Positions 1-31,636 of a stretch of 64,000 bases of DNA are shown in pieces (the first letter of the stretch is position 1; every line of letters starts with the position of its first letter). Origin of the DNA: Clostridia bacterium (GTDB lineage Bacteria > Bacillota > Clostridia > Peptostreptococcales > Acidaminobacteraceae); NCBI GenBank assembly GCA_014859095.1, contig JACUUV010000001.1:62001-126000 (forward strand). Reading direction: 5' to 3'. The notes below the pieces were generated by a model. The model saw nothing but the letters and a program-made list of their open reading frames with translations, was not told the DNA's origin and searched no databases. The position numbers and the translations under genes were made by a program.

Positions 1-985
1 GAAGTGAATATTCGTCATCTTCTGCCTCAATATCAGCAGATACAACCAATGCCGATCCATGAGGCCCAAAAACCCGTCCTTTTTCCTTATACGGAAGGTT
101 TAGGTGATGTCCATAATACTTTGCCCTTCCGTCCATGACACCAAGTCCATAGCCTCTAATTTGCTCTGGAAACAACCCTCTGTAATCCAGTTCACCAGAA
201 TCATCTCTATTGGCAGCATCAAAAACAGATAGACAAAGTAAATCGACCGGATCAGAAACGACTGCAAAAATGCCTTTGAAATTTACTTTTCTTGCTTCTT
301 TAGCGTATAGGGCAATTATTTTTGAGTTTTCGTTGAATTGGATCATGCGGACATCTCCGACCTGCTCTCCTACTTTAGGAACATATTTGGATGCACAAAA
401 AACGAAAACATCGGCATCGAAAAGTTGGTCATATGATATAGCCTTGACCCTGATATCGGGATTGGTTGTGATTTGATTCAATTCCATTTCCCACCGTGAC
501 TTTTGATTATCATTCAAATCGAATATTCCTATTTCGCCTATACATTCACCACCAATAAGTTTGAGCCCTATTGACAACATACTTCCAACATCCCCTAAAC
601 CCAGTAGGTTCACTGTCTTTTTTCTTCTGTGAAAATTGACTTGTTCGTTAAGAAAAGTGATCATGTGGTCCCAAATCTCTTCCATAGGCAAATCATGCCG
701 ACTGATCAAATAATTGATGTTTAGAGCGATGGTTTTACCTTTTTTTATGAGTTCCCCAATCACTTCATCCTCTGATGGCGCGGTTTCAGTGTATAGCACT
801 TCCAAGACTTCCATGTCACACTCCGGTCTTTCGAAATGTAAACACGCTTTTGTTGTGCCAAGTGGCGCATGAAATATGATGACATTGTGATCACAGTGTT
901 CATCAAATGCACAAATGAACTGTTCCAAACCCGGCAATGTCTTGAAACTGATCAGTTGCCAGTCCTCTTTTTTGTATATATACAT
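1..985 (-). CDS. Lactate/malate dehydrogenase-fold protein, C-terminus cut by window edge
   Basis: Reading the minus strand from ATG at 985 gives 328 residues with no stop before the window start. Residues 1-120 are an N-terminal region not usual for this family. A Rossmann nucleotide-binding motif GLGDVGS follows at 129-135, then FAVVSDPVD (about 240-248, matching the family NPVD), MDGR (284-287, where LDH/MDH have LDxxRxR) and GPHG (307-310, matching the catalytic-His GxHG). The His is kept but the Asp/Arg spacing is altered, so the substrate is unknown and lactate or malate should not be assumed. The RBS (AGGTGAT) overlaps the stop codon region of the upstream 1625-residue gene, so the two form an operon. 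Confidence 0.8.
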   Translation of the reverse strand, partial: MYIYKKEDWQLISFKTLPGLEQFICAFDEHCDHNVIIFHAPLGTTKACLHFERPECDMEVLEVLYTETAPSEDEVIGELIKKGKTIALNINYLISRHDLPMEEIWDHMITFLNEQVNFHRRKKTVNLLGLGDVGSMLSIGLKLIGGECIGEIGIFDLNDNQKSRWEMELNQITTNPDIRVKAISYDQLFDADVFVFCASKYVPKVGEQVGDVRMIQFNENSKIIALYAKEARKVNFKGIFAVVSDPVDLLCLSVFDAANRDDSGELDYRGLFPEQIRGYGLGVMDGRAKYYGHHLNLPYKEKGRVFGPHGSALVVSADIEAEDDEYSL

Positions 986-994
986 GATTATCAC

Positions 995-3900
995 CTATCC
1001 AATATAAAATGATTTGAGTTTCTTCAGTTGTTCAAGATCATCCTTGATGTACTCTGACGGGCGTATATTGTTGGAATAAAATATATTTTTGCCTTTGTCA
1101 GGATATCTTGGAGTATTGAGCACTTCACCCAAACGGTTGATTGTCAACAAACGGTCATTCATTTTTTCATAAACAGTTTCTACGGCAGTCATGATTTCAA
1201 TGGCATTTGTGAGTGCCACTTCAGAAAGGTTGTAAATGGATTCTTTGGAGGCTCCTTCTATATAGGCGGCAGATGAATAAGGTAGTATCAAGTTGACGGA
1301 GTTGATCAGATTGCTGTCAGGTATACTACCGCGCCAAATGGCATCTCCATCAATAAATGGATACAATTTGCTTTCATAAAACCATACTTTGATTTTTGGA
1401 ATGAAATATGCGGCATCGACGTTGAGGTTCATTGACTCGGCAATTTCCTTACCACTGCCCGACATGATGCCTACTATGAATTTTTGAACCTCCACGTGAT
1501 ATTTCTCAAAAAACGGGACCAATGCCTGAAGTCTATACCCTTTGTTCAAAAGGTCATCCACCAGAATGATCGGTTTGTCATAGGACTTGATCATCTTGAT
1601 TTGATTTTCTATATCGAGATAGTATGGATATTCCTTGATTTGATGTGTCGCCAAATCGGTGGAGAAATACTTTTCAGCATGCAGTGTTTTTGTGATCGTA
1701 TTGGGGAGTATCCATTTTTTGAATACAGCTCCAAAAGGTACACACATGGCATCCCCGAGTAATTTTGGAGTTTGAGGCATTGCGGGAACATTGTTTTCTT
1801 CGCATACTTTTTTGATCAATGTCTCGTAAATCATCGAACGGTCAAAACTCAGGACCAAATTACCAGGATATAACTCAGTCATTGCTTTTTGCAATCTGGT
1901 CCTGGATTTTGCCATGACTGCAGACAATTCCGGCAACGTTTTATAAGGATCCTTGAACTGTGAATGAATGTCGAGGTTTAACGTGCAAGGTGATGACATA
2001 TTCACAGCATAGGCAATCTCATCAGTTTTAACCGATGTAATATTGATAAATCCTTGATGGACCAATGCCTCGTTCATCTCTTTACTGATATGGTCTCTTG
2101 CTGATTCTTTATATACGCAATAAGTGTAATCACGGGATAATGCGTTTGCAAGTGTTTCCGTCAGCATGATCTGCTCAAGATTCTTAAACTCGGTTATTTT
2201 CCTTTTGAATATGCCATCAATGACAAGGATTCGACCGACAGAATTGTTTCTGACGTATTTTATGATTGTGGGGTCCTCAAATTCATAGTGGATATCCGTG
2301 GCTCTCAACCAATGAAATATCGAAATTGCGATAAGCTCTTTGTTTATTTCCAGATTTCTTAAAGCCAAAACCTTCAAACGATCTTGTGAAAAAAGCTTTT
2401 CCATGTCGCTCTGAAACTCACTACCAAAAAAACCTTGAATTTCTTTCTTGAAAGCATCTGAAAGCTCATCGACAATTTCAAGTGACAACGATTTTGTCGT
2501 CATCATGCTCTTGAACATAGGCTCTCTTTGATACAAACCTTTCTCGTAGATGAAATTCTGTGCCAATGGCTCTATAAGCGTTGAAATATCTCTGTTCTCA
2601 TCAATATAATCCCTGATTAGAGTGGAGCTGATCGTCTCGAATGCCTTAGGCAAAGTGAATTTCATACTATGAGGATGCAATCTTTTGATTTTTGAGTTCA
2701 ACACTTCAATTTCAGCCAAAGACGCATCAAGTCCACCCCGCTCGTAAATCAAGTGTGGGATCTCACCTAAAAATCCAAGCTCTTCTTTGTTGTAAGCAGA
2801 AGCGTTCATGACCACATCCGTTCCAACCACTAAAAACACTTCGGATTCAGGAAACAATTTTTTCAATCGTCTCAAATCTTTATCATTGGCTATATTGACG
2901 GTGACGTCACGCGGGAAAGGAAAGACATCGATTTCACCTGCTATGGAACGTTTGATGATGCTGCGTCTAATAAGATTCGGTTGGGTCCGTTTAGACCATG
3001 AAAACTCATCCACGTAAAGCAAGACCTCAAACCCCCGTTTCTTGATGTCATTAGCAATTTGCTTGTGGCTCAAGGTAAAGGGATCGAATGCACCAGGGAA
3101 AAAAGCGATTCTTTTGTTGGGCTTTAGAGGTATTTCGCCAAAGTCATGCCTGAATTCGGAAATAAAATTGTAGATATATTTCAGTGAAGCGGAATTGTTA
3201 TAAAAAATCAGATCGTTGGCTTCGTCGGTATTGACCATCAAGGACATGACTTTTTTAATGGTGAGTTTGTATAGATACTCCTTCTTCTTAAGATTTAAAA
3301 CAGAATCGGAATAAACGTCTTTTGCCACCACACTGAAAGCTGTCTGATTGACAAAACTGGAACTGTGTACGAATCCATTGAATAACACCCCATATAATCT
3401 TAGAATTCGATTTTCATGGGTATCGACGCGTTCCTTGAAAGCATATCTATAATCCGCATAACGTGTGACTGCATAACCGACGGTTTTGACAATCAATGAG
3501 ATAAGTTTTTCGTTGTTCGTACTCATCTTCTTCTCAAAACTTTCAATGATTTCATCCAGTTCCTTAGGTTTCACATGCAAAATGATTTTACCTAAATACG
3601 GAGGTATATATTTTGTGAATTCGAAACTTTCCATTTCGAGTGCTCTAATCAACTCGACCGCAATATCGTTTTTCTGTTCGTAATTCAAATGCGGAATAAT
3701 GTGAAGCAGCATTCTTCCCGCTGTATTCCGCACCGATTCAAGGGCACTTACCTTCAGGAGATTGCACAGGTGCATTGCCATGTAAAAGCTATTGTCATAG
3801 TCATATAATAATGTATTTCTCATTAAAAGTTCAATTTGAAATCTTTTGGCCACATCCAATGTAGCAGATTTAAGATTACTCAAAAAGATATTGGATGTGT

Positions 3901-5872
3901 ATTGCAAATCGTCTATGCAAATGGCTTTGAGATAATCGATTGTGCCTTGATCCATTTTGAGATTTTCGGCCAATTTCAAGCGCGCGTAGTTTTCAGCGGG
4001 ATCACCTGTAGAGGGATTGTCCACTGATACTACCCTTCTGATGCCCGCCTGCACAATTAAAGCCTCATCCGCATACGGTAAAATGGAATAAATCAGATTG
4101 TATGCACGCAATCTCAATTTGAAATCTTCATTGGTCAATAAACTCGAAACAAAATTGAGTATCTTGAATCGCTGTTCGTCGTTAAATTCATTGAATGGCA
4201 ACACTCTGGCTGCTTTGATCAAATAAAATCGAATCTGTTCATCATCGCCATAACGCATAAAATAATTGACGATGCATTCTATGCTCTGAAGTCTTTTTTC
4301 AGTGCCTTCAAGATGTTCAAAATAGGATGAGATCATATCACGGACACTATAACTTATATATTTCTTGTGACGATCGATGACTTTTGTTTCCGGACTCATA
4401 AATTTATCAATGTAATAATCGAACATTCCAAGTGTATCTATTGAGTTGTGATTGGTCACAGCGCTCTTTGGAATTTCTTTCCTTATGACCTCATCGTACG
4501 AAGCCACTATGGTGCCAATGAGTTCAGCACACTGTTTTCTGATATCCTCTTGAGGTAAAGACAGTTTTTCATAAAGAAAACCAATGACGATCTGTTTTTG
4601 TTTTTGAGTCAGATAATTGTAATACTCTTCCAAAATGGCAAGATAACCTCTCAGACTTGTCATGTCCCTACTCGATCGTACTGGCTCAAGAAGTTTGTTC
4701 AGTGATGCCTCATCTCTAAAACGGTACAACAACTCAATATTGTGTTGAATGGATGAATAAACAACATTTTTTGTGATTTCGGGTCCTTGCATAAGTGAAA
4801 AGTATTTTCTTTTTATAGTCGAACCTTTTGTCAAGTCCTCACCCGCATCAGGTTCGGTATTTATGCCAAGATCCATCAGAAAATTTTCAAAATCCAGGAG
4901 TTTGCTATAAACCTTATTGTATCGGTCTTCCTTTGCGGCATCCAGATTGTCCAATTTATTCAAGATGACTTTGAAGGAATCATGGAGGGTATAGATCTTC
5001 ATATAGGACTTGCCGTCCATGAATTCCGCTTTCACCCTAAAATCACTGTAAATCAAAATAAGAGATTCAATTGGAAGCGCTTCAAGCTCCAAGTCCCATG
5101 TGGAATGATTGATTGCGACGTTTCTGATGTAGACTATCTTTCTTTTTTCAAACCACTCGCCTGTATAATGATAATGGAAATAGGCAACTCGACTTGCTTC
5201 GTCCGGCTTGCATCCAAATTTGCCTATATCATGACCGGCAGCGGCACCTGAAACTCTTCCAAGGTCGATTGGAAACCCTAAACATTTGAGTTGCCGGGCT
5301 ATCTTCATTGCGATATGATGCACACCACAAATATGATCCAGCGTCGTATAGCCAATAACGTCTTGGTTCATTTTCATCATTTCATAGACGTATTCATGAT
5401 TGAATGATCTTTGAAAAGTATTGAATTCCTGAGGATCTTCAAGTGCATCCACTTCGTCTTGAGTCAATAGACTCAGTGCGTATTTACTTTGCCAAGTGCC
5501 ATCATTTGACCTTTTTTGGATTTCAGAAAATATCTTCAAAACGCGAAGAAACATCTCAGCCACTTTGTTGCATTCTGTGCCAAGACTTATTGTTACAGCA
5601 TCGGGGAAAGAAAAATTCAAACTATAGAAATAAAAATAATCAAGCCAGTTGTCAGGTTTGTTTTTGACCGGGTAAATATCGATTAGATCCATCATCAGTT
5701 CATAGACATCTTTACTGTCATATTTTTTATCTACAAGCATAAGCTCTATCTGATCTTTGAACTTGGTCGTTGATATGACATCCGAAACAATTTTTCGTTC
5801 TATTCCGAATTTTCTTATGAAATTTCTGTTGAGCAATTCTTTGGCAATTTGACGGAAAGCCTGATCAATCAT
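995..5872 (-). CDS. 1625-aa multidomain protein: HD, helical repeats, NadD-like nucleotidyltransferase, GNAT-like, PRTase-like
   Basis: An HD domain is seen at about 178-300 (H180, H214-D215, then GK). Residues of about 380-910 are rich in amphipathic helices and look like HEAT-type repeats. A cytidylyltransferase/NadD-type domain spans about 918-1115, with GAFDPFTLSH at 927-936 and ISSTLIR at 1081-1087. A weaker GNAT-like fold follows at about 1116-1290. The C-terminal part has a phosphoribosyltransferase PRPP-loop motif, ILVDDLLNKG, with VDD at 1438-1440. RBS GAGGTGA precedes ATG 5872. The family motifs suggest nucleotide or NAD-type chemistry, but no substrate can be assigned. It is translationally tight with the downstream dehydrogenase-fold gene. 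The motifs are seen directly; the repeat and GNAT calls are inference. Confidence 0.85.
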   Translation of the reverse strand: MIDQAFRQIAKELLNRNFIRKFGIERKIVSDVISTTKFKDQIELMLVDKKYDSKDVYELMMDLIDIYPVKNKPDNWLDYFYFYSLNFSFPDAVTISLGTECNKVAEMFLRVLKIFSEIQKRSNDGTWQSKYALSLLTQDEVDALEDPQEFNTFQRSFNHEYVYEMMKMNQDVIGYTTLDHICGVHHIAMKIARQLKCLGFPIDLGRVSGAAAGHDIGKFGCKPDEASRVAYFHYHYTGEWFEKRKIVYIRNVAINHSTWDLELEALPIESLILIYSDFRVKAEFMDGKSYMKIYTLHDSFKVILNKLDNLDAAKEDRYNKVYSKLLDFENFLMDLGINTEPDAGEDLTKGSTIKRKYFSLMQGPEITKNVVYSSIQHNIELLYRFRDEASLNKLLEPVRSSRDMTSLRGYLAILEEYYNYLTQKQKQIVIGFLYEKLSLPQEDIRKQCAELIGTIVASYDEVIRKEIPKSAVTNHNSIDTLGMFDYYIDKFMSPETKVIDRHKKYISYSVRDMISSYFEHLEGTEKRLQSIECIVNYFMRYGDDEQIRFYLIKAARVLPFNEFNDEQRFKILNFVSSLLTNEDFKLRLRAYNLIYSILPYADEALIVQAGIRRVVSVDNPSTGDPAENYARLKLAENLKMDQGTIDYLKAICIDDLQYTSNIFLSNLKSATLDVAKRFQIELLMRNTLLYDYDNSFYMAMHLCNLLKVSALESVRNTAGRMLLHIIPHLNYEQKNDIAVELIRALEMESFEFTKYIPPYLGKIILHVKPKELDEIIESFEKKMSTNNEKLISLIVKTVGYAVTRYADYRYAFKERVDTHENRILRLYGVLFNGFVHSSSFVNQTAFSVVAKDVYSDSVLNLKKKEYLYKLTIKKVMSLMVNTDEANDLIFYNNSASLKYIYNFISEFRHDFGEIPLKPNKRIAFFPGAFDPFTLSHKQIANDIKKRGFEVLLYVDEFSWSKRTQPNLIRRSIIKRSIAGEIDVFPFPRDVTVNIANDKDLRRLKKLFPESEVFLVVGTDVVMNASAYNKEELGFLGEIPHLIYERGGLDASLAEIEVLNSKIKRLHPHSMKFTLPKAFETISSTLIRDYIDENRDISTLIEPLAQNFIYEKGLYQREPMFKSMMTTKSLSLEIVDELSDAFKKEIQGFFGSEFQSDMEKLFSQDRLKVLALRNLEINKELIAISIFHWLRATDIHYEFEDPTIIKYVRNNSVGRILVIDGIFKRKITEFKNLEQIMLTETLANALSRDYTYCVYKESARDHISKEMNEALVHQGFINITSVKTDEIAYAVNMSSPCTLNLDIHSQFKDPYKTLPELSAVMAKSRTRLQKAMTELYPGNLVLSFDRSMIYETLIKKVCEENNVPAMPQTPKLLGDAMCVPFGAVFKKWILPNTITKTLHAEKYFSTDLATHQIKEYPYYLDIENQIKMIKSYDKPIILVDDLLNKGYRLQALVPFFEKYHVEVQKFIVGIMSGSGKEIAESMNLNVDAAYFIPKIKVWFYESKLYPFIDGDAIWRGSIPDSNLINSVNLILPYSSAAYIEGASKESIYNLSEVALTNAIEIMTAVETVYEKMNDRLLTINRLGEVLNTPRYPDKGKNIFYSNNIRPSEYIKDDLEQLKKLKSFYIG

Positions 5873-5996: not shown

Positions 5997-6614
5997 ATGT
6001 CCAACATATCCAAATCTCCAACTGTCAGCAATTATAGAAATGTTTCGTCCAGCAAGGTGAAATCAGCGGCAAACACCGAGCCAGTCAAACACGTCTATGG
6101 TAAAGGAGAAGTACATAACAACCCCGACCATCGATCTGGAAATGAACGATACATCATAGATACATTCTACTCTGGAGTCCACAATCTGATGGCATCGTAC
6201 AATCGATTGTCCACACATGAAGATCAGAATCAGTCCGCCGCACAATACTACAAGGCACATAAGAATGAAGTTTTCAAAGGTGCGAGCAGTATGGTGTCAG
6301 GAATCAATTTCCTTGTCAAACAATCCAAAGACTGCGACCAAAGATATGGAACACACTTCAAATTTTTAGTGGAGAGTATCTTGAATGACTTTGTGGATGT
6401 CCTAAAGGCCATCGGTATTCACTACGAAAAGGGAATTCTCTACCTGGACAGAAAACACTTTCTCGTAGAGCTCATAGACAATCCGGAGATATTCACATTC
6501 CTCTTTGCTCCTCAAACCGGTCTGATTGACCGCCTTTCAGCAATCCATTACAAAATCGAACATATATTGCACAGCACTGAATCAGAAGGACAGATCATCG
6601 ATTATAGAACCTGA
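5997..6614 (+). CDS. Hypothetical protein, mainly helical, 205 aa
   Basis: RBS AAAGGGGG lies before ATG 5997. The first 45 residues or so are polar and low in hydrophobics (many S, N, K), suggesting a flexible tail. The rest (about 50-195) is helical, with alternating hydrophobics (SGINFLVKQS, FLVESILNDFVDVL). No signal peptide, membrane segment or catalytic motif is seen. It is divergent from the 1625-aa gene and converges on the YihY gene across a shared terminator. I do not recognise the family; a cytoplasmic structural or adaptor protein would fit but is a guess. Confidence 0.7.
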   Translation: MSNISKSPTVSNYRNVSSSKVKSAANTEPVKHVYGKGEVHNNPDHRSGNERYIIDTFYSGVHNLMASYNRLSTHEDQNQSAAQYYKAHKNEVFKGASSMVSGINFLVKQSKDCDQRYGTHFKFLVESILNDFVDVLKAIGIHYEKGILYLDRKHFLVELIDNPEIFTFLFAPQTGLIDRLSAIHYKIEHILHSTESEGQIIDYRT

Positions 6615-12042: not shown

Positions 12043-13137
12043 ATGGAACTGAAAAAAATACTGTTGCCCGCCCACTCGATTGAAATCTCTGTGGAAGAAA
12101 AAGATGAGAGCGGAAACTCTAACGTCAAATTGCTGAAAACCGTCGTTGAAACAGGTTATGAAGATGGAAACTTTCGTGTGGTCGCACCGATTCTACACGG
12201 ATATATCTATAATTTTCATCCTGGAGATCTGATTGATGTGCTCTTCTTGTTAAAGGATGAGAACAAAGGCATCTTTACCATTTCATGCAGAGTTACAGAA
12301 CGATCATTTGAAGACGATTTATCAATCATTTCTTTGGCTGTTTTATCAGAACCCAAAAAAATCCAAAGGCGACAAGCCTTCAGAGTCAATATCTTCAACA
12401 CTTATGTTTTTAAGTATCGGGGCAGCGAAAGGGTGCTGGTTTCCAAAGATATCAGTTCCACAGGCATGCTTGCACTGACGAATTCATATATGAAACCCTC
12501 GGATACCTTCGAACTTCTATTCGACGCCAACATTTCCGGATCCGATCATGAGAACAGTCCGGATAAAATATTCAGAATCAAATGCAGGGTTTTGGAAAGT
12601 ACTGCCGAACCTGAAATCAGACGATATTCCAATCGAATCAGGTTTGAAGGCATGTCTCCCACAGAATCAAAATATCTGCTTCAATACCTTTACGCGAAAC
12701 AGACTGAAATTATTCAAAGCATGCCGGAATATGAGAACTACCTCGACAAACTTTTCAGTGACAAATCTTCTGATCGTAGAAAGAATATGGATCGCATTCA
12801 AAAAAGGGTTCATATAATCGGCTTTTTAAATTTGTTTATCATTTTTTTGGCATTCGTGTTTCTCTTGTTCGCCCAACCTGCCCCCATCTACGGTCTCGAT
12901 CGTTTTTTTGATTATTATCGACCCAAAGTATGGAACATAGGATATCTAAGAGCCGCCCTTGGCAGCGCCTCACTTGCCGTACTGATGGGATTGGCTGGTA
13001 TTATGATGAATGCGACGCGACTCAAAAGAAAAAATGACACCTTGAATTCAGGTATCATAGTATCACTTATATTGGGCATTGTCATTATAGGATTCATGTT
13101 GTATTTCATTGTAGTGAATGATCTTATAATTTTTTAG
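12043..13137 (+). CDS. PilZ-domain protein with YcgR-like N-domain and C-terminal membrane segments
   Basis: The 364 residues have an N-terminal YcgR-type (PilZN) beta domain at about 1-105, then a PilZ c-di-GMP-binding domain with RRQAFR at about 108-113 and the D-x-S-x-x-G motif DISSTG. The tail holds three membrane helices (about 262-285, 300-325, 337-362). PilZ domains bind cyclic di-GMP, which in YcgR slows flagella; the membrane tail here is unlike YcgR and suggests signalling at the membrane. RBS GGGGTGA precedes ATG 12043. The 3' end overlaps the convergent radical SAM gene by 14 bases. Confidence 0.85.
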   Translation: MELKKILLPAHSIEISVEEKDESGNSNVKLLKTVVETGYEDGNFRVVAPILHGYIYNFHPGDLIDVLFLLKDENKGIFTISCRVTERSFEDDLSIISLAVLSEPKKIQRRQAFRVNIFNTYVFKYRGSERVLVSKDISSTGMLALTNSYMKPSDTFELLFDANISGSDHENSPDKIFRIKCRVLESTAEPEIRRYSNRIRFEGMSPTESKYLLQYLYAKQTEIIQSMPEYENYLDKLFSDKSSDRRKNMDRIQKRVHIIGFLNLFIIFLAFVFLLFAQPAPIYGLDRFFDYYRPKVWNIGYLRAALGSASLAVLMGLAGIMMNATRLKRKNDTLNSGIIVSLILGIVIIGFMLYFIVVNDLIIF

Positions 13138-14059
13138 AGCCTTGTGAGACGTTACGTCTTGCAAGGTTTTTTTCTATGCCGTTGAGAACACTTCTTTTAT
13201 TCTTGATCCACATGGGAGCGATAACCGCATCATGGGCTCCGTCACCTGTCATTCTATGGATGACGATCGATTCATCCAAGACCTCTATGGCATCTGTGAC
13301 CCACTCGATATAGTCCTCCAAATCAAGCAAATCAAAACAACGGTTTATATAATCTTGTTCAAGTGCAGTGTCCTTTAAAACATTGAGCATATGAAGTTTA
13401 ACACCAAAAGGCTTTAAATTTGAAATGTATTCCACGGATGCTATAAAATCGTCATGGGTTTCATCTGGAAGACCCACTATGAGATGGACGACAACAGGAA
13501 TATCTGCACTCTTCAATCTCATGAATGTTTGGTGAAATTGATCAAGTGTATAATGGGTCTTGAGCCAATTCATACTTTTTTCATGTATGCTTTGAAGACC
13601 CAGTTCCACCCACAAAACGCCATTTTGCCTATATTTTTTCAAAAGTTCAATTTTTTCATCATCCAAGCAATCAGGCCTGGTCGCTATTGCCAATCCTTCA
13701 ATACCATCAAAGGCAAGGGCTTCATCATAAAGTTTTGATAAAACGTCCACATTGGCATAGGTGTTGGTGAAATTTTGAAAATACGCAATATATCCTGTGG
13801 ACTTCCATTTATCAGCCAACAATTTCTTTTGACTTTCAATCTGACTGTGAATGGAATAAGTATGATTAGGGTCACAATTTTCTCCCACAACACCTGCGAA
13901 TTCTCCTGAACCCTTCTCACTGCAAAATATGCATCCTGAACTGGCTAATGTCCCATCTCTGTTGGGACATGTAAATCCTGCATCAATTGCCAACTTGACC
14001 ATTTTTTTACCATATTGGTTTTTAAAATAGTCACCAAGTGCATTGTATCTCTTAATCAT
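13124..14059 (-). CDS. TIGR01212-type radical SAM protein (YtqA-like)
   Basis: The 311 residues begin with the family pattern for cluster binding: KLAIDAGFTCPNRDGT, then SSGCIFC, giving C-x(9-10)-C-x2-C around residues 30-42. Later family features are AYFQNFTNTYAN and VHLIVGLPDETHDD. Members are radical SAM enzymes related to the Elp3 group; the reaction is not established. It is the last gene of the hyd run: its start overlaps the hydF stop by four bases. The last 16 codons or so contain the terminator of the convergent PilZ gene. Confidence 0.88.
   Translation of the reverse strand: MIKRYNALGDYFKNQYGKKMVKLAIDAGFTCPNRDGTLASSGCIFCSEKGSGEFAGVVGENCDPNHTYSIHSQIESQKKLLADKWKSTGYIAYFQNFTNTYANVDVLSKLYDEALAFDGIEGLAIATRPDCLDDEKIELLKKYRQNGVLWVELGLQSIHEKSMNWLKTHYTLDQFHQTFMRLKSADIPVVVHLIVGLPDETHDDFIASVEYISNLKPFGVKLHMLNVLKDTALEQDYINRCFDLLDLEDYIEWVTDAIEVLDESIVIHRMTGDGAHDAVIAPMWIKNKRSVLNGIEKNLARRNVSQGSKKL
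13139..13172 (+). terminator. Terminator for the PilZ gene, inside the convergent gene
   Basis: CCTTGTGAGACG and CGTCTTGCAAGG form a 12-bp stem (two G-U pairs in RNA) with a three-base loop, then seven Ts. It lies wholly within the coding end of the minus-strand radical SAM gene. Confidence 0.85.
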
Positions 14060-15255
14060 CTGCCCTCACACCCTAATATTTCTATACTCCGATTCAAAAT
14101 ACCAGTAAAATAGGCCAATGTCAATCCGTAATTGGTTATTGGAACAAATTGCAGAGAAGATTTACGAATTCTGCTTTCCATCGTTTTTCGGTTGACCATG
14201 CATGCACCGCAATGTATGATCAAATCATATTGATCCAATTGAACGGGAAAATCCTGTCCCATTGAAAATTCAATCTGAATGTCTTCAGAAATATTTTTTT
14301 TGATCAAACTGGGAATTTTGACCCTTCCTATATCTTCATGTGAATGATTGTGGGTACAACTTTCAGAGATTAAAATTTTTGATTTGCCATCCATTCTCTC
14401 AAATGCTCTTATACCTTCCAGCAAAGAATGAATATCCCCCTTTTGTCTGGCCAGCAAAATTGAAAAACTCGTCAATTTGATACTTCGTGGCACCAATGCA
14501 CTCACTGCTGCGAAAGCTTGAGAATCCGTTATGACGAGATCGATTCGAGGCAGTTCAGCAAGAGTTTGCTCAAGTTCGGTATCTCTCACGACATGGCATT
14601 TGATGCCATGATCCAAACAATCTCTGATCACTTGTACCTGCGGCAAAATAATTCTTCCTTTGGGTGCTTCTGAATCAATGGGCACCACAAGGACCACAGT
14701 ACTGCCATAAGATAATAGATCACCAACGAGAGGCATATCTTCTTCCAGTTTTTCAAGTCTTGATTGTATGTCATCAATCAAACCATAAACACTGTCCTGA
14801 TTTTTTGTGGATACATACGTGACTTCATTGAGGTTGGAATCGATTTCCATTTTTTCAGATTGTCCGAGCAGCTCCATTTTGTTGACAACAATCATATGTG
14901 GTATATTGAAGCGTTTGAACAACTTTGCCGTTTCCTTATAACCACAATAATCTGGCGAGGTTCCATCCACAAGGTAAATAGCGAAATCTGTTCGATCCAT
15001 CATCTGTTTTGTCTTCTCGATTCGTAGTGAACCCAGTGAACCAATATCATCAAGTCCTGCGGTATCCAGCCATACGACTGGACCAAAAGGAATCAATTCC
15101 ATTGCTTTTAAAACCGGATCTGTCGTCGTTCCGCTCGTATCTGATACAATTGAAATCTCTTGTCCGATAATTGCATTGAACAGCGAGGATTTTCCTGCAT
15201 TTCTATTGCCATAAATACCGATGTGGACCCTGTTTGAATTTGGAGTTTTATTCAT
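14056..15255 (-). CDS. hydF: [FeFe]-hydrogenase maturation GTPase HydF
   Basis: HydF is the scaffold that assembles the two-iron subcluster and delivers it to apo-hydrogenase. The 399 residues contain an N-terminal GTPase domain (P-loop GNRNAGKSS at 15-23; LDTAGLDD; VNKMEL), a middle dimerisation domain, and a C-terminal iron-sulfur domain with CTHNHSHED and HCGACM, matching the Cys-x-His ... His-Cys-x-x-Cys cluster site. It follows hydG by nine bases in one operon. hydE and the hydrogenase genes are not in this window. Confidence 0.96.
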   Translation of the reverse strand: MNKTPNSNRVHIGIYGNRNAGKSSLFNAIIGQEISIVSDTSGTTTDPVLKAMELIPFGPVVWLDTAGLDDIGSLGSLRIEKTKQMMDRTDFAIYLVDGTSPDYCGYKETAKLFKRFNIPHMIVVNKMELLGQSEKMEIDSNLNEVTYVSTKNQDSVYGLIDDIQSRLEKLEEDMPLVGDLLSYGSTVVLVVPIDSEAPKGRIILPQVQVIRDCLDHGIKCHVVRDTELEQTLAELPRIDLVITDSQAFAAVSALVPRSIKLTSFSILLARQKGDIHSLLEGIRAFERMDGKSKILISESCTHNHSHEDIGRVKIPSLIKKNISEDIQIEFSMGQDFPVQLDQYDLIIHCGACMVNRKTMESRIRKSSLQFVPITNYGLTLAYFTGILNRSIEILGCEGR

Positions 15256-15264
15256 ATCGTTCTC

Positions 15265-16677
15265 CTATAGGTAAATGTCTCTTTTTCCGTCAGTCAAATC
15301 CGATAATCCTTGGATGACTTTCAATTTGATGTCATCTCTTTGAATTTTCTCAATTTGGCTATCGATAAATCCATCCACCGTTGCCCTCAATTCATCATCC
15401 CCATAATCCAGTGCGTATTCCTTAAGTGTCATCAAGGCATTGGGTTGACAAACATGCTGAATCGCTCCAGTTTTTGCGAGACTCATAAATCGATCTCCGG
15501 TACGGCCCATTCGATAGCAGGAGGTGCAATGGCTTGGAATGAATCCATCATTGATCAGTCCTTTGATCACTTCAAGTGGAGAACGCTCATCCGATATGGT
15601 AAATTGCTTGATTTCTTCTTCCATATCTTTCTCTTTGTACCCGCCTACACCTGTACATGAACCCGCGCTGAGTTGTGAGACTCCATGGTGCAGTAACTCA
15701 TTACGGATTTCCTTCGTTTCACGTGTGGACAATATAATGCCTGTAAAAGGGACCGCAATTCTAAGAATAGCCACAATTTTTTTGAATGTATCATCATCGA
15801 TCAAGTAATCATAGTCTTTAAGTTCCATGCCTTCCGCTTTTTTTAAGCGAGGTACTGAAATTGTATGGAAACCGACGCCATGATTCGATTCCAAATGGGC
15901 ATTGTGCATCATTAATGCCAACACTTCGAAACGATAATCGGATAATCCGAAAAGCACCCCCGCGCCCACATCATCAACGCCGGCTTGCATCGCTCTGTCA
16001 AAAGCTGTGAGGTGGTACTCATAATCGCCTTTTAGCGATTTTGGATGCATGATCTCATAGGTCGGTTTATGATAGGTTTCTTGGAACAATATATAAGTAC
16101 CAATATCAGCGGCTTTCAATTTCGCATAATTCTCAATGGTTGTTGAAGCTATATTGACATTTACTCGTCTGATATTGCTGTTTTCAGATACTTCATCGTA
16201 GATGATTCGAAGTGTGTCGACGATATAATCGATATCACAGTTCACCGGATCTTCTCCAGCTTCAAGTGCGATGCGTTTATGTCCCATACTTTCAAGGATT
16301 CTCACTTCTTCGCGAATTTCAGGCTCAGTAAGCTTTCTTCTGGCAAATGTATTGTCACGTTTGTATCCGCAATAGACGCAATTGTTCACACAAAAATTGC
16401 TGACATAAAGCGGTGCGAATAATACGACTCTATTGCCATAGATGGATTGCTTGATTTCAGCCGCCAAATTATAAATCATTTTCAGTTGATCCTGGCTTGT
16501 AGCCTGAAGCATGATTGCTATATCCTCATAAGAAAGCCCATTTCTGAGTTTTGCTTTCTCTATCACCGTTGCAATTTGAGTTTCAGTAACCACCTTAGTT
16601 TTTGTTAATATTTCCCCAATTAAATCATGATCGATAAAATTAGCTTCCTTATAGTTGTGATCTCCATACTTTGGCAT
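15265..16677 (-). CDS. hydG: [FeFe]-hydrogenase H-cluster radical SAM maturase HydG
   Basis: HydG cleaves tyrosine to give the CO and CN ligands of the H-cluster. It shows the radical SAM motif CVNNCVYC (C-x3-C-x2-C, near residue 90) and the C-terminal auxiliary cluster motif CTSC with a third Cys 22 residues on (HVCQPNAL). ATG 16677 is chosen because GGAGG stands five bases upstream; an in-frame ATG 12 bases earlier would put that RBS within the gene. Length (about 470 aa) is normal. It lies just downstream of the TM1266-type regulator. Confidence 0.96.
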   Translation of the reverse strand: MPKYGDHNYKEANFIDHDLIGEILTKTKVVTETQIATVIEKAKLRNGLSYEDIAIMLQATSQDQLKMIYNLAAEIKQSIYGNRVVLFAPLYVSNFCVNNCVYCGYKRDNTFARRKLTEPEIREEVRILESMGHKRIALEAGEDPVNCDIDYIVDTLRIIYDEVSENSNIRRVNVNIASTTIENYAKLKAADIGTYILFQETYHKPTYEIMHPKSLKGDYEYHLTAFDRAMQAGVDDVGAGVLFGLSDYRFEVLALMMHNAHLESNHGVGFHTISVPRLKKAEGMELKDYDYLIDDDTFKKIVAILRIAVPFTGIILSTRETKEIRNELLHHGVSQLSAGSCTGVGGYKEKDMEEEIKQFTISDERSPLEVIKGLINDGFIPSHCTSCYRMGRTGDRFMSLAKTGAIQHVCQPNALMTLKEYALDYGDDELRATVDGFIDSQIEKIQRDDIKLKVIQGLSDLTDGKRDIYL

Positions 16678-16695
16678 AAAATCCTCCATTAATTT

Positions 16696-27790: not shown

Positions 27791-29244
27791 AACACGACCT
27801 CCTTTTTAGCAAATTCCTTTTCGAATGCCAGCCCAAGCGACAAAATCACTTTCTCTGAAAACGCCTTACCTATGAGTTGCATTCCTATGGGCATCTCATC
27901 ATCATCGAATCCGCAGTTTGTGCTGAGTGCGGGTAAACCGGCAATGTTGACCGGCACTGTATAGATGTCTCCAAGGTACATCTCGACTGGATTTTTGGAG
28001 TGCTCACCGAACTTGTATGCTGTTGTCGGTGCAACTGGAGTCAAAATCACATCAAAGCTTTCGAACAATTTGTCAAACGTTTCCTTGACCATTTGTCTTG
28101 CTCTTAAAGCATTCAGATAATACGCGTCATAATAGCCTGAGCTCAAAGCATAGGTACCGAGTAGAATACGACGTTTGACTTCGGTTCCGAATCCGAATCC
28201 CCTTGATTGGTTATATAAACTTCCTATGCTGTCAAATCCACTGTGACGATAGCCATACTGGATGCCATCAAATTTCGCCAGATTGGATGATGCTTCAGCT
28301 GATGAGAGGAGATAATAGGCCGGCAAAGCATATTCCATGTTTTCAATTTCCACAGGTTCAACTGTGACCCCTATGGACTCAAAGGTTTTTGCAGCCTCTA
28401 AAACAGCATCTTTCACCTCTTTTTGAATGCCTTCCCTTAAATAGTTCATCGGCAATGCAACTCTTAGCTTTTCAATGTTTTCACCAATGAGGGCATCTTT
28501 ATTCTCAACCATCCTTTCAGAACTGGTGCTGTCCATCGGATCATGCCCAGCCAAAGCGGTATAGACAAAGGCGAGGTCTTCGACATTTTTCGCAATAGGT
28601 CCAATTTGATCAAGCGATGAGGCAAATGCGATCAAACCGCTCCTTGATATCGTGCCATATGTGGGTTTCAATCCAGATACCCCACAAAAAGCAGCGGGTT
28701 GTCTTATCGATCCACCTGTATCCGATCCGAGTGTGTATGCCGCCTCAAAAGCTGCTACAGCAGCCGCAGGACCTCCCGAACTTCCACCCGGAACTCTGCC
28801 CATATCCACTGGGTTTCTGGTTTTTTTGAAGTAAGATGTCTCGGTTGAAGCGCCCATGGCGAATTCATCCATATTCAGTTTGCCCAGAATGATGGCATCG
28901 TTTGCTCTCAATTTTTTTACGACGTGCGCATCAAATGGCGACATATAGCCTTCAAGCATTTTTGAAGCGCATGTCGTCGGCATATCTGAGGTGCAAATGT
29001 TGTCCTTGATAGCCATAGGGATTCCCGAAATGGGTGACAAGATTTGTTTTTTTTGTCTTTTCAAATCAATTGCAATCGCTCTTTCTATCGCCAATACCGG
29101 GTCAAAATGCAAATAGGCTCCGATGCTGTCATCTAGCTTCTCTATTTGGTCAACAAAGGCTCTCGTCAATTCCTCACTGGAAATCTCACTGGCACAGAGT
29201 TTTTTTGATAATTCACCTATGGACTCATAAATCAATGCTTTCAT
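27787..29244 (-). CDS. gatA: Asp-tRNA(Asn)/Glu-tRNA(Gln) amidotransferase subunit A
   Basis: GatA is the glutaminase that supplies ammonia. The amidase signature is clear: PMAIKDNICT (catalytic Lys), GRVPGGSSGGPAAAVAAFEAAYTLGSDTGGSIRQPAAFCG with the cis-Ser and nucleophile Ser of the Ser-cisSer-Lys triad. 485 residues, full length. It overlaps the aspS-gatC fusion upstream and gatB downstream by four bases each, so all three are translationally coupled. Confidence 0.96.
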   Translation of the reverse strand: MKALIYESIGELSKKLCASEISSEELTRAFVDQIEKLDDSIGAYLHFDPVLAIERAIAIDLKRQKKQILSPISGIPMAIKDNICTSDMPTTCASKMLEGYMSPFDAHVVKKLRANDAIILGKLNMDEFAMGASTETSYFKKTRNPVDMGRVPGGSSGGPAAAVAAFEAAYTLGSDTGGSIRQPAAFCGVSGLKPTYGTISRSGLIAFASSLDQIGPIAKNVEDLAFVYTALAGHDPMDSTSSERMVENKDALIGENIEKLRVALPMNYLREGIQKEVKDAVLEAAKTFESIGVTVEPVEIENMEYALPAYYLLSSAEASSNLAKFDGIQYGYRHSGFDSIGSLYNQSRGFGFGTEVKRRILLGTYALSSGYYDAYYLNALRARQMVKETFDKLFESFDVILTPVAPTTAYKFGEHSKNPVEMYLGDIYTVPVNIAGLPALSTNCGFDDDEMPIGMQLIGKAFSEKVILSLGLAFEKEFAKKEVVL

Positions 29245-31331
29245 GACTTTTCACCTTCCTTTTCCACTGTTCTTGGCACATGAATATAATTTTCTATTTT
29301 AGATGGTGCGTTCTTCAGCAGAGACTCGACATCCGTAGACTTGACCCACTTGTCTTTTCTTCTGGAGTGGGTCCCGGTCACCACATGTGTCAGCGGTTCA
29401 TAACCGCTAAGGTCCAAACCGTTCAATTGGTCGGCGAACGCTATGATGTCCGCTAAATCCCTCGAAAAGGATTTGCGTTCTTTTTCTGTAAGTTCAATCC
29501 GTGCCAGGTTCGCCACATAATCAATACGTTCCAAAGACTCTTTTTCAACCTTCGGCGATTCCTGTGTTTGAGTCATCAATCCGATGGAAAGCTCTTCAAG
29601 TTGCTCAGGGTCTACCTCTGATGGTGAGTCTGTCATCGCACAGGAACCGTCACGCATTTTTGGAAAAGGTATGACCTCTCGAATACTGGCTGATCCGGAG
29701 AGCAACATCAAAAGTCGATCGAGGCCAAAAGCGAAACCGCCATGAGGGGGTACGCCATATTCGAATGCATCCATCAGAAATCCAAATCGCGCATCGATGA
29801 TGACCTGAGTCATTCCTAGAGCTTCAAACATCTTTTGTTGAATTTTGGGGTTGTGTATTCTTATGCTTCCACTGCCGAGTTCCACACCGTTCAGTACTAT
29901 ATCATATGCCTTTGCCCTCATCTCGAGAGGTGCGTCTGTGAACTTGTCAATATCTTCCTCCACTGGCATTGTAAATGGATGATGCATGGCAACCAATCGT
30001 TTGGAAGTGGTGTCGTATTCAAACAACGGGAACTCAGTGACCACCACAAAGGCAAATTTGTCTTTGGGTCTCAGATCGAGCATGTCGCCGACATCAAGCC
30101 TCAAGTTGCCAAGTACAGATTGCGCTTTTTGAGCGGGTTCAGCACAAAATACTATGAGATCCCCATTTTGTGCATCTGCAGTCTTGATCAACTCCTCCAT
30201 TTGTTCATCAGTAAAATATTTGGTCAAAACCGATTTGAGTTGTCCGTCAGTTCCAATAGCGATCCAAGCCATACCACTTCCACCATGTTCAAATGCTCTC
30301 TTGGTCAGATAATCGATCTGTGAACGGGTGATCTCATCTCCACCCTTTATTGTGAGGGCTTTCACTACAGCTCCATTTGCTATGGCTTTTGTGAAGATTC
30401 CAAACTCGCTTTGTGCCACGATTTTTGTCAAATCGACAATTGGCATCTCAAATCTAAGGTCGGGCTTGTCCGTTCCATAGAGAGTCATGGCTTCTTTATA
30501 GGTCAATCTCTTGAATGGTTGATCGATTATGATCTGGTGTGATTCTTTGAGCAAATCTTTAAAGAGCTGCTCAAGAAGGCTAATGACATCCTCATCGTCA
30601 ACAAAAGAGAGTTCCATGTCAACTTGTGTGAATTCAGGCTGCCGATCCGCCCTGAGGTCCTCATCCCGGAAACATTTTGCGACTTGAAAATATTTGTCAA
30701 TCCCGCCTACCATCAAAAGTTGTTTGTAAATTTGAGGGGATTGTGGCAATGCATAGAATTTTTCCTTTTTGATTCGACTTGGAACCAGAAAATCCCTTGC
30801 GCCTTCCGGAGTGCTTTTGGTAAGTATGGGAGTTTCCATTTCAAGGAAGCCTTTATTTAAAAGACTGGTCCTGATGGCTTGGGTGACCTTTTGTCTCATC
30901 TTTAGGTTTTCAAGGACTTTAGGGTTACGCATGTCCAAATATCTATATTTTAGCCTGAGATCTTCTCTGACGTTCATGGATTCTTCAATTCCGAATGGTG
31001 TATTTTTGGATTCTGAGTAAATCACGAGCGAACTTGCTCTCACATCGATATCTCCGGTCGGAATGCTGAGGTTGATTGTATCAGGACTTCTCTTTTCGAC
31101 AATCCCTTTGACTGCGATGACGTATTCATTTCTAAATTTCTCAGCGAGTATGAAATCATGCGCGCTCAATTTTGAAGCGTCGATCACCACTTGACAGATG
31201 CCTTCACGATCACGAAGATCAATGAAAATAACACCTCCCAAATCTCGTCTTCTTTGAACCCAACCCATGATGACGACTTCCTTCTCTAATTCATCTTTGG
31301 TCAACAGACCACAATAATGTGTTCGTTTCAT
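29241..31331 (-). CDS. aspS: Aspartyl-tRNA synthetase fused to GatC
   Basis: Residues 1 to about 585 are a bacterial-type class II AspRS: OB-fold anticodon domain (VIMGWVQRRRDLGGVIFIDLRD), motif 2 region (FRDEDLRADRQPEFTQVDMELSF), GAD insertion, and motif 3 (GGFAFGLDRLLMLL) near 540. Residues of about 600-690 are a complete GatC: ERIDYVANLARIELTEKE, DIIAFADQLNGLD, EPLTHV, and a final LLKNAPSKIENYIHVPRTVE. There is no separate gatC and no strong RBS before the internal Met586. AspRS charges tRNA(Asn) as well as tRNA(Asp) when non-discriminating, and GatCAB then amidates it. RBS GGGGAGG precedes ATG 31331, behind a T-box. Confidence 0.95.
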   Translation of the reverse strand: MKRTHYCGLLTKDELEKEVVIMGWVQRRRDLGGVIFIDLRDREGICQVVIDASKLSAHDFILAEKFRNEYVIAVKGIVEKRSPDTINLSIPTGDIDVRASSLVIYSESKNTPFGIEESMNVREDLRLKYRYLDMRNPKVLENLKMRQKVTQAIRTSLLNKGFLEMETPILTKSTPEGARDFLVPSRIKKEKFYALPQSPQIYKQLLMVGGIDKYFQVAKCFRDEDLRADRQPEFTQVDMELSFVDDEDVISLLEQLFKDLLKESHQIIIDQPFKRLTYKEAMTLYGTDKPDLRFEMPIVDLTKIVAQSEFGIFTKAIANGAVVKALTIKGGDEITRSQIDYLTKRAFEHGGSGMAWIAIGTDGQLKSVLTKYFTDEQMEELIKTADAQNGDLIVFCAEPAQKAQSVLGNLRLDVGDMLDLRPKDKFAFVVVTEFPLFEYDTTSKRLVAMHHPFTMPVEEDIDKFTDAPLEMRAKAYDIVLNGVELGSGSIRIHNPKIQQKMFEALGMTQVIIDARFGFLMDAFEYGVPPHGGFAFGLDRLLMLLSGSASIREVIPFPKMRDGSCAMTDSPSEVDPEQLEELSIGLMTQTQESPKVEKESLERIDYVANLARIELTEKERKSFSRDLADIIAFADQLNGLDLSGYEPLTHVVTGTHSRRKDKWVKSTDVESLLKNAPSKIENYIHVPRTVEKEGEKS

Positions 31332-31353: not shown

Positions 31354-31636
31354 CAATAAAAAAAGCTCTCATCCCTATATATAATAGGGACGAAAGCTTA
31401 TGTTCCGCGGTACCACCCAGTTTGATCCTAAGATCCACTTTGAATCGATACGGACAATGAAATTGTCGATATCTACTGGCTGTAACGTGCCAGACACGTC
31501 TAATCCTACTCACTTTCGCTTCGGTTAGCAACTCGGAGATGTTTTTCATCTTTAACTCTGTACCAATCTTCCACCGTCATTGGCTCGCTGTAACTTTGTA
31601 CCAGATTACTCTTCTCTTCATCGTCTTTTGTTATTG
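31354..31636 (-). promoter_or_regulatory. T-box riboswitch upstream of aspS-gatC
   Basis: On the minus strand, the T-box core GGGTGGTACCGCGG (31405-31418) can pair with an uncharged tRNA 3' end. It is followed by a long terminator stem (AAGCTTTCGTCCCTAT / TATAGGGATGAGAGCTT) and seven Ts (31354-31401). Stem I lies at about 31625-31535, with the distal loop GCCAAT...GGTGGAAG...ATTGG and an AGUA/GAA pair bordering a specifier loop. The likely specifier triplet is AAC (Asn), read from GAAAAACATCTCC; this is by eye and AAA or GAA cannot be excluded. Confidence 0.92.

Follow-up and report, generated by a model that had tools for sequence, protein, structure and literature searches.

The 1625-aa protein encoded in our window, the 64,000-nucleotide stretch of Clostridia DNA that was analysed, joins an HD hydrolase, a HEAT-type scaffold, a NadD-type nucleotidyltransferase, a GNAT-fold domain and a phosphoribosyltransferase (PRTase)-fold domain in a single chain. 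Our preferred reading, to which we assign a probability of roughly 45%, is that it is a bifunctional enzyme that would both write and erase an NAD-like dinucleotide, with the product serving two redox partners from the same operon.

The gene is a single complete frame on the minus strand, a point that the sequence-only reading does not mention, and its ATG start is preceded by a good ribosome-binding site (AAGAGGTGAATGT-ATG). Since full-length relatives sharing 33–93% identity are found in dozens of genomes, a chance origin of such a long frame is excluded. When the chain was scanned as a single sequence against Pfam, it scored above cut-off for the NadD-type domain only (CTP_transf_like, residues 924-1087, E 2.7e-6), with weak matches to HD (178-220) and Pribosyltran (1428-1471). 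An alignment of 59 full-length relatives was used as input for two AlphaFold2 models, which cover residues 1-915 (pLDDT 89.7, pTM 0.85) and 1115-1625 (pLDDT 90.4, pTM 0.90). Evidence from profiles, structure models and alignment bears out the five domains that a sequence-only reading of this DNA had assigned (HD, helical repeats, NadD-like, GNAT-like and PRTase-like), and the residue numbers given there for H214-D215, GAFDPFTLSH (927-936), ISSTLIR (1081-1087) and VDD (1438-1440) are all exact. The chain is built as follows.

995-5872, minus strand: whole gene, HD-HEAT-NadD-GNAT-PRTase chain (open reading frame and full-length relatives)
5426-5872, minus strand: N-terminal all-helical region, residues 1-149 (AlphaFold2 model)
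4838-5425, minus strand: HD phosphohydrolase, residues 150-345 (weak Pfam match, ligand set, YqeK profile match)
3128-4735, minus strand: HEAT/TOG-type helical repeat scaffold, residues 380-915 (AlphaFold2 model and structure search)
2525-3127, minus strand: NadD-type domain, residues 916-1116, with GAFDPFTLSH, GTD (1017-1019), Y1027 and ISSTLIR (Pfam, NCBIfam, profile-profile comparison, alignment)
1985-2494, minus strand: GNAT-fold domain, residues 1127-1296 (AlphaFold2 model, structure search, alignment)
1163-1984, minus strand: type I PRTase-fold domain, APRT/XPRT/PurR-like, residues 1297-1570 (weak Pfam and NCBIfam matches, model, Foldseek, alignment)
995-1162, minus strand: C-terminal helices, residues 1571-1625, and stop codon (open reading frame and model)

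The N-terminal region, for which no family match was found, is the least conserved part of the chain, with a mean pairwise identity of 25%.

The profile searches that the sequence-only reading had called for place the central domain within the NadD fold. Besides Pfam, it matches the NCBIfam NadD model TIGR00482 (E 2e-8; 34.5 bits in the protein scan and 39 bits in the genome scan), and profile–profile comparison aligns it to genuine NadD over 192 columns with an E of 1.5e-18. These bit scores are far below the curated NadD cut-off of 112 bits, which makes it unsafe to transfer the NadD substrate to the chain. G927, D930, P931, H936, K961, R969, G1017, D1019, Y1027, S1083 and R1087 are kept in 64/64 ordinary chains, which are related rows rather than independent events; the (T/H)xxH and ISSTxIR signatures are thus both represented, H936, S1083 and R1087 being invariant, and the exceptions are S1082, which is R in two chains, and T1084, which is S in nine. 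In NadD, the base-binding part of the pocket is formed by PPHK, YTxDTL and a ring-stacking Trp. The profile alignment shows SKRT in place of PPHK, NIANxxDL in place of YTxDTL and, at the ring-stacking position, an invariant Tyr (Y1027) in place of the Trp, and these nicotinate-facing differences are conserved within the chain family.

Towards the N terminus, six HD ligands (H180, H214, D215, H233, H256 and D277) are invariant in all 71 distinct chains that were aligned, which again are related rows and not independent events. They spell H..HD..H..H..D, the extended ligand motif of dinuclear YqeK-type HD phosphatases (PMC8177086). By single sequence the domain is weak (Pfam E 0.026), and the YqeK model TIGR00488 does not appear among the NCBIfam matches of the chain up to an E of 1; profile–profile comparison with YqeK gives an E of 1.4e-4. 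Since a structure search with the 1-915 model returned a list filled by HEAT proteins, it is the invariant ligands, together with the profile match, that make the HD assignment firm, and no fold comparison enters into it.

The window's genome also encodes a canonical NadD-YqeK fusion of 393 aa, which is above the cut-offs of both families (G000:C96:60338-61456; L119:1459-2640). The cell therefore has another NadD besides the 1625-aa protein, for which ordinary NAD synthesis is not likely to be the sole task. Within this genus NadD and YqeK form one frame; of 41 relatives, 39 have YqeK, and open frames of 400-419 aa over YqeK occur among relatives. Fusions of this type have been described mainly from mycoplasmas. 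In the mycoplasma protein, YqeK cleaves what a promiscuous NadD makes in error (PMC9426524), and by analogy this fusion is the closest functional precedent for the chain. It also lends some weight to the notion that the chain serves ordinary NAD metabolism as a back-up or for repair, in which the NadD-type domain would make NaAD (or NAD from NMN), the HD domain would remove misincorporated or damaged dinucleotides and the extra domains would sense PRPP and nucleotides. The full-length profile match to NadD fits this notion, and the redox partners would then be NAD users. We nevertheless regard it as unlikely, given that a complete fusion is already encoded in the genome, with YqeK nearly universal among the relatives, and that the residues facing nicotinate differ in a conserved manner.

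The redox partners are the two genes that follow the chain gene on the same strand at nearly all loci, forming a three-gene unit in which the chain gene comes first. In the window's genome they are located as follows.

1-994, minus strand: second operon gene, LDH/malate-dehydrogenase-like, cut by the left edge of the window (full length 425 aa; first base at 994 or 985)
G000:C17:60680-61735, beyond the left edge of the window: third operon gene, FMN-reductase-like

The spacing between the chain gene and the LDH-like gene is -41 to +26 bases at nearly all loci, with frequent overlaps, and the same holds between the LDH-like and flavoprotein genes. A few genes separate the chain gene from the dehydrogenase/flavoprotein pair in two genomes, and in one genome the flavoprotein is on another contig. 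Co-occurrence was quantified in a sample of 391 genomes of the class. The flavoprotein is present in 30 of the 32 chain-bearing genomes, the two others being assemblies that are only 82-84% complete, and no genome without the chain has a match above 30 bits (the next best match is at 29 bits).

The LDH-like protein is about 420 aa across loci (Ldh_1_N, E 5e-10), the one of the window having about 125 extra N-terminal residues, and the solved structures nearest to it are L-lactate dehydrogenases. Lactate dehydrogenases rely on a catalytic His-Asp pair and a substrate-binding Arg. Equivalents of the His and the Arg are kept, without the invariant Asp partner, and SDPVD is found for SNPVD; with these two departures, the protein may not be an ordinary dehydrogenase. 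The FMN-reductase-like protein is about 350 aa (E 5e-18) and has four invariant Cys arranged in a CX2CX4CX8C cluster, from which we infer that this flavoprotein probably has an Fe-S cluster. Upstream of the chain gene, an operator for the NADH sensor Rex scored no better than in shuffled sequences. The five stretches that were scanned with Rfam showed no leader near the chain gene, only a T-box far away.

Elsewhere in the window, a T-box leader (31383-31630, minus strand) lies upstream of a 696-aa frame (29241-31331), and frames at 13124-16689 (minus strand) resemble, as judged by eye, a radical-SAM protein, HydF and HydG, which would be [FeFe]-hydrogenase maturation genes. A divergent 205-aa gene with no Pfam match (5997-6614, plus strand; cluster 11) is conserved beside the chain in the closest relatives only.

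How the two active sites relate to each other is best seen in paralogues. Some genomes carry a second full-length copy, which is outside the operon and adjoins a gene for an APH-family kinase. When chains of 1400 aa or more are considered, both active sites are kept in all 67 dehydrogenase-linked copies, which once more are related rows and not independent events. In the kinase-linked copies, the HD site is kept throughout and the NadD site has decayed in all but one; two of the rows, L157 and L162, are one and the same gene. The tree requires NadD to have been lost independently at least twice and the neighbourhood to have changed three times; as the trees are quick ones with long branches among the decayed paralogues, the count of losses (two or more) can be trusted further than the sequence in which they happened. 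The reciprocal case is found in two genera (g6 and g20), where the operon copy has lost HD (1075-1201 aa) and kept NadD and PRTase, and where the genomes also have a further copy, whose HD domain survives and whose NadD site has decayed. Each activity is thus kept somewhere in every genome of these genera, which fits two functional activities that are separable and coupled. The simplest reading of this pattern is that synthesis and hydrolysis would be separable activities, both of which need to be retained.

These same copies bear on the idea that the HD domain is the main effector, a hydrolase of an alarmone (ApnA-like or other) for which NadD, GNAT and PRTase would be mainly sensors or scaffolds. 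HD is indeed the most conserved domain of the chain (59% mean pairwise identity), and of the active sites it alone is present in every kinase-linked paralogue; against this, every operon copy retains the NadD residues, and in one subclade the operon copy has dropped HD but not NadD, which leaves this idea very unlikely.

The neighbourhoods of the paralogues have recurrent genes of their own. APH-family kinase genes beside the mostly NadD-decayed copies are found at L047:7039-7974, L032:6292-7245 and L033:6726-7655, and also at L064, L065, L147, L149 and L162, spread over three distinct regions of the tree. In the two genera, the HD-type split paralogues (L038, L039, L040 and L055) have a conserved set of upstream genes (clusters 17, 18 and 25, encoding about 170-208, 189-224 and 212-217 aa, respectively), which also occurs near the ordinary copy of genome G013. 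The HD-less operon copies (L034, L035, L041 and L042) have clusters 22, 23 and 24 upstream, cluster 24 being a conserved gene of 161-163 aa immediately adjacent to them.

The remaining domains are recognized largely by fold. HEAT/TOG repeat proteins match the model over residues 380-915, with a best Z of 14.7. GNAT proteins match residues 14-179 of the 1115-1625 model (Z 14.4, rmsd 3.1 over 149 residues), and in all members inspected the R/QxxGxG/A acetyl-CoA loop is absent between the fourth strand and the next helix. For the PRTase part, sequence searches are weak, Pfam Pribosyltran being found in 22/59 members at E up to 0.05 and NCBIfam giving weak APRT/HPT matches for the chain, and Foldseek with the C-terminal model finds adenine and xanthine phosphoribosyltransferases and PurR at E of about 1e-4. 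The flexible loop is APRT-like, with K1395, H1398 and E1400 conserved in most members. The equivalent of the PRPP loop (ILVDDLLNKGYR, residues 1436-1447) keeps the acidic pair and the G and reads DDxxxKGxR, not DDxxxTGxT, both T being replaced (K1444 and R1447). In several distant members (L138, L140, L141 and L142), E1400, D1439 and the PRPP loop have decayed, and NadD, HD and the operon are kept; conversely, PRTase is intact in paralogues with a dead NadD. A loss of catalytic residues across homologues, which the sequence-only reading had named as grounds for rejecting its proposal, is seen in the PRTase of distant members and not in the NadD domain of ordinary ones.

This uneven conservation matters for two proposals. 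The first, that PRTase and adenylyltransferase chemistry together amount to NAD salvage, came from the sequence-only reading; the PRTase fold and the NadD-type domain on which it was built are both real, and the salvage itself is weakened by the presence of a canonical NadD-YqeK protein, by the different NadD base pocket, by the atypical PRPP loop and by PRTase residues that vary where HD and NadD are intact and stay where NadD is dead. The second is an assembly line for a new dinucleotide, in which PRTase would join a base to PRPP, NadD would add AMP, HD would recycle the product and the GNAT fold would bind an intermediate, the product being a dedicated redox cofactor for the operon pair. 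The APRT-like flexible loop and the fixed linkage to two redox genes suit such a scheme; the substituted PRPP loop, its decay in members that keep everything else and the intact PRTase of NadD-dead copies all count against it, and we consider it quite unlikely.

Our preferred reading, a writer and eraser of an NAD-like dinucleotide, would work as follows. The NadD-type domain would transfer AMP (or another NMP) from an NTP onto an NaMN-like mononucleotide, with release of pyrophosphate, to give the dinucleotide. The dinuclear HD domain would hydrolyse the dinucleotide itself or molecules of it that are faulty or in surplus, in the manner of YqeK in the mycoplasma fusion. The HEAT scaffold would keep the two active sites apart and probably make contacts between chains, and the GNAT-like and PRTase-like domains would bind ligands, PRPP or a nucleotide being the obvious candidate, and so set the balance between synthesis and hydrolysis. 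The product would then serve both operon partners, the LDH-like dehydrogenase and what is probably an Fe-S flavoprotein. With the NadD and HD residues kept and redox partners alongside, the broad class first suggested for this protein, an enzyme that makes or repairs a nucleotide cofactor or signals with it, is still the best one. Two points tell against opposed activities and a product-using pair: the HD domain might act on an unrelated nucleotide, and the dehydrogenase and flavoprotein might supply the substrate rather than use the product. It is conceivable, although somewhat doubtful, that a large group of anaerobic bacteria uses the chain to make a dinucleotide distinct from NAD, NADP, NaAD and ApnA, which would act as a dedicated redox cofactor or redox signal for the operon partners and be destroyed by the chain's own HD domain. 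Bacterial redox metabolism would then gain a further cofactor or second messenger; a chain that acts on NAD itself would be a very large device for proofreading or controlling NAD synthesis. Paralogues in which just one of the two sites is still alive amount to an experiment done by nature, through which both roles can be tested directly.

A genomic survey of the domain order, as the sequence-only reading had suggested, found the same chain, its domains in the same order, in many families of Clostridia as well as in other classes of the phylum. Among the 61 nearest genomes, 48 have a match (31 of 39 genera), a few of these matches being to the ordinary NadD only. Full-length relatives occur in several families of the 391-genome class sample, with Fusibacter, Acidaminobacter and Acetoanaerobium among the named carriers, and in other classes in 8 of 398 genomes in all. 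Length is mostly 1570-1680 aa, and in the 398 genomes of the phylum the GNAT-PRTase part was never found separate or shuffled, always as part of the full chain. A phage or plasmid origin was rejected, as neither phage records nor viral contigs nor PHROGs gave a match, and the sole match in the plasmid collection is a 2.6-Mb replicon of Acetoanaerobium. A role in anti-phage defence was likewise rejected, none of the three operon proteins having a PADLOC match. While the domains are individually known, as is the pairing of NadD with HD, no description of the five-domain chain and its operon was found in the literature that could be searched.

Comparison with known systems shows both what is shared and what is particular to the chain. 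With NadD (nicotinate-nucleotide adenylyltransferase, TIGR00482) it shares the full-length fold, (T/H)xxH, ISSTxIR, GxD, an aromatic residue at the ring-stacking position and a C-terminal LY tail, but it is far under the family cut-off and departs from it in PPHK, YTxDTL and the Trp. With YqeK (Ap4A hydrolase family, TIGR00488) it has the extended H..HD..H..H..D set in common, whereas profile similarity is weak and the spacing and surroundings are different. APRT, XPRT and PurR, as type I phosphoribosyltransferases, share with it the fold, the acidic pair and the flexible loop; in the chain, K-G-x-R stands for T-G-x-T and is poorly kept in distant members. The NadD-YqeK fusions, both mycoplasma JCVISYN3A_0380 and the 393-aa protein of the window's genome, likewise combine a NadD-type adenylyltransferase and a dinuclear HD in one polypeptide. 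In those fusions, however, NadD is directly followed by YqeK and both are genuine members of their families, whereas the chain has HD first, about 530 residues of HEAT in between, extra GNAT and PRTase domains, an altered NadD base pocket and a redox operon, and it coexists with an ordinary fusion. Finally, in the way it may work, the chain is reminiscent of RelA/SpoT-type synthetase-hydrolases, where an N-terminal HD, a nucleotide-transferring synthetase and C-terminal regulatory domains are also found in one long chain, although the synthetase here has a NadD-type fold and is not of the RelA type.
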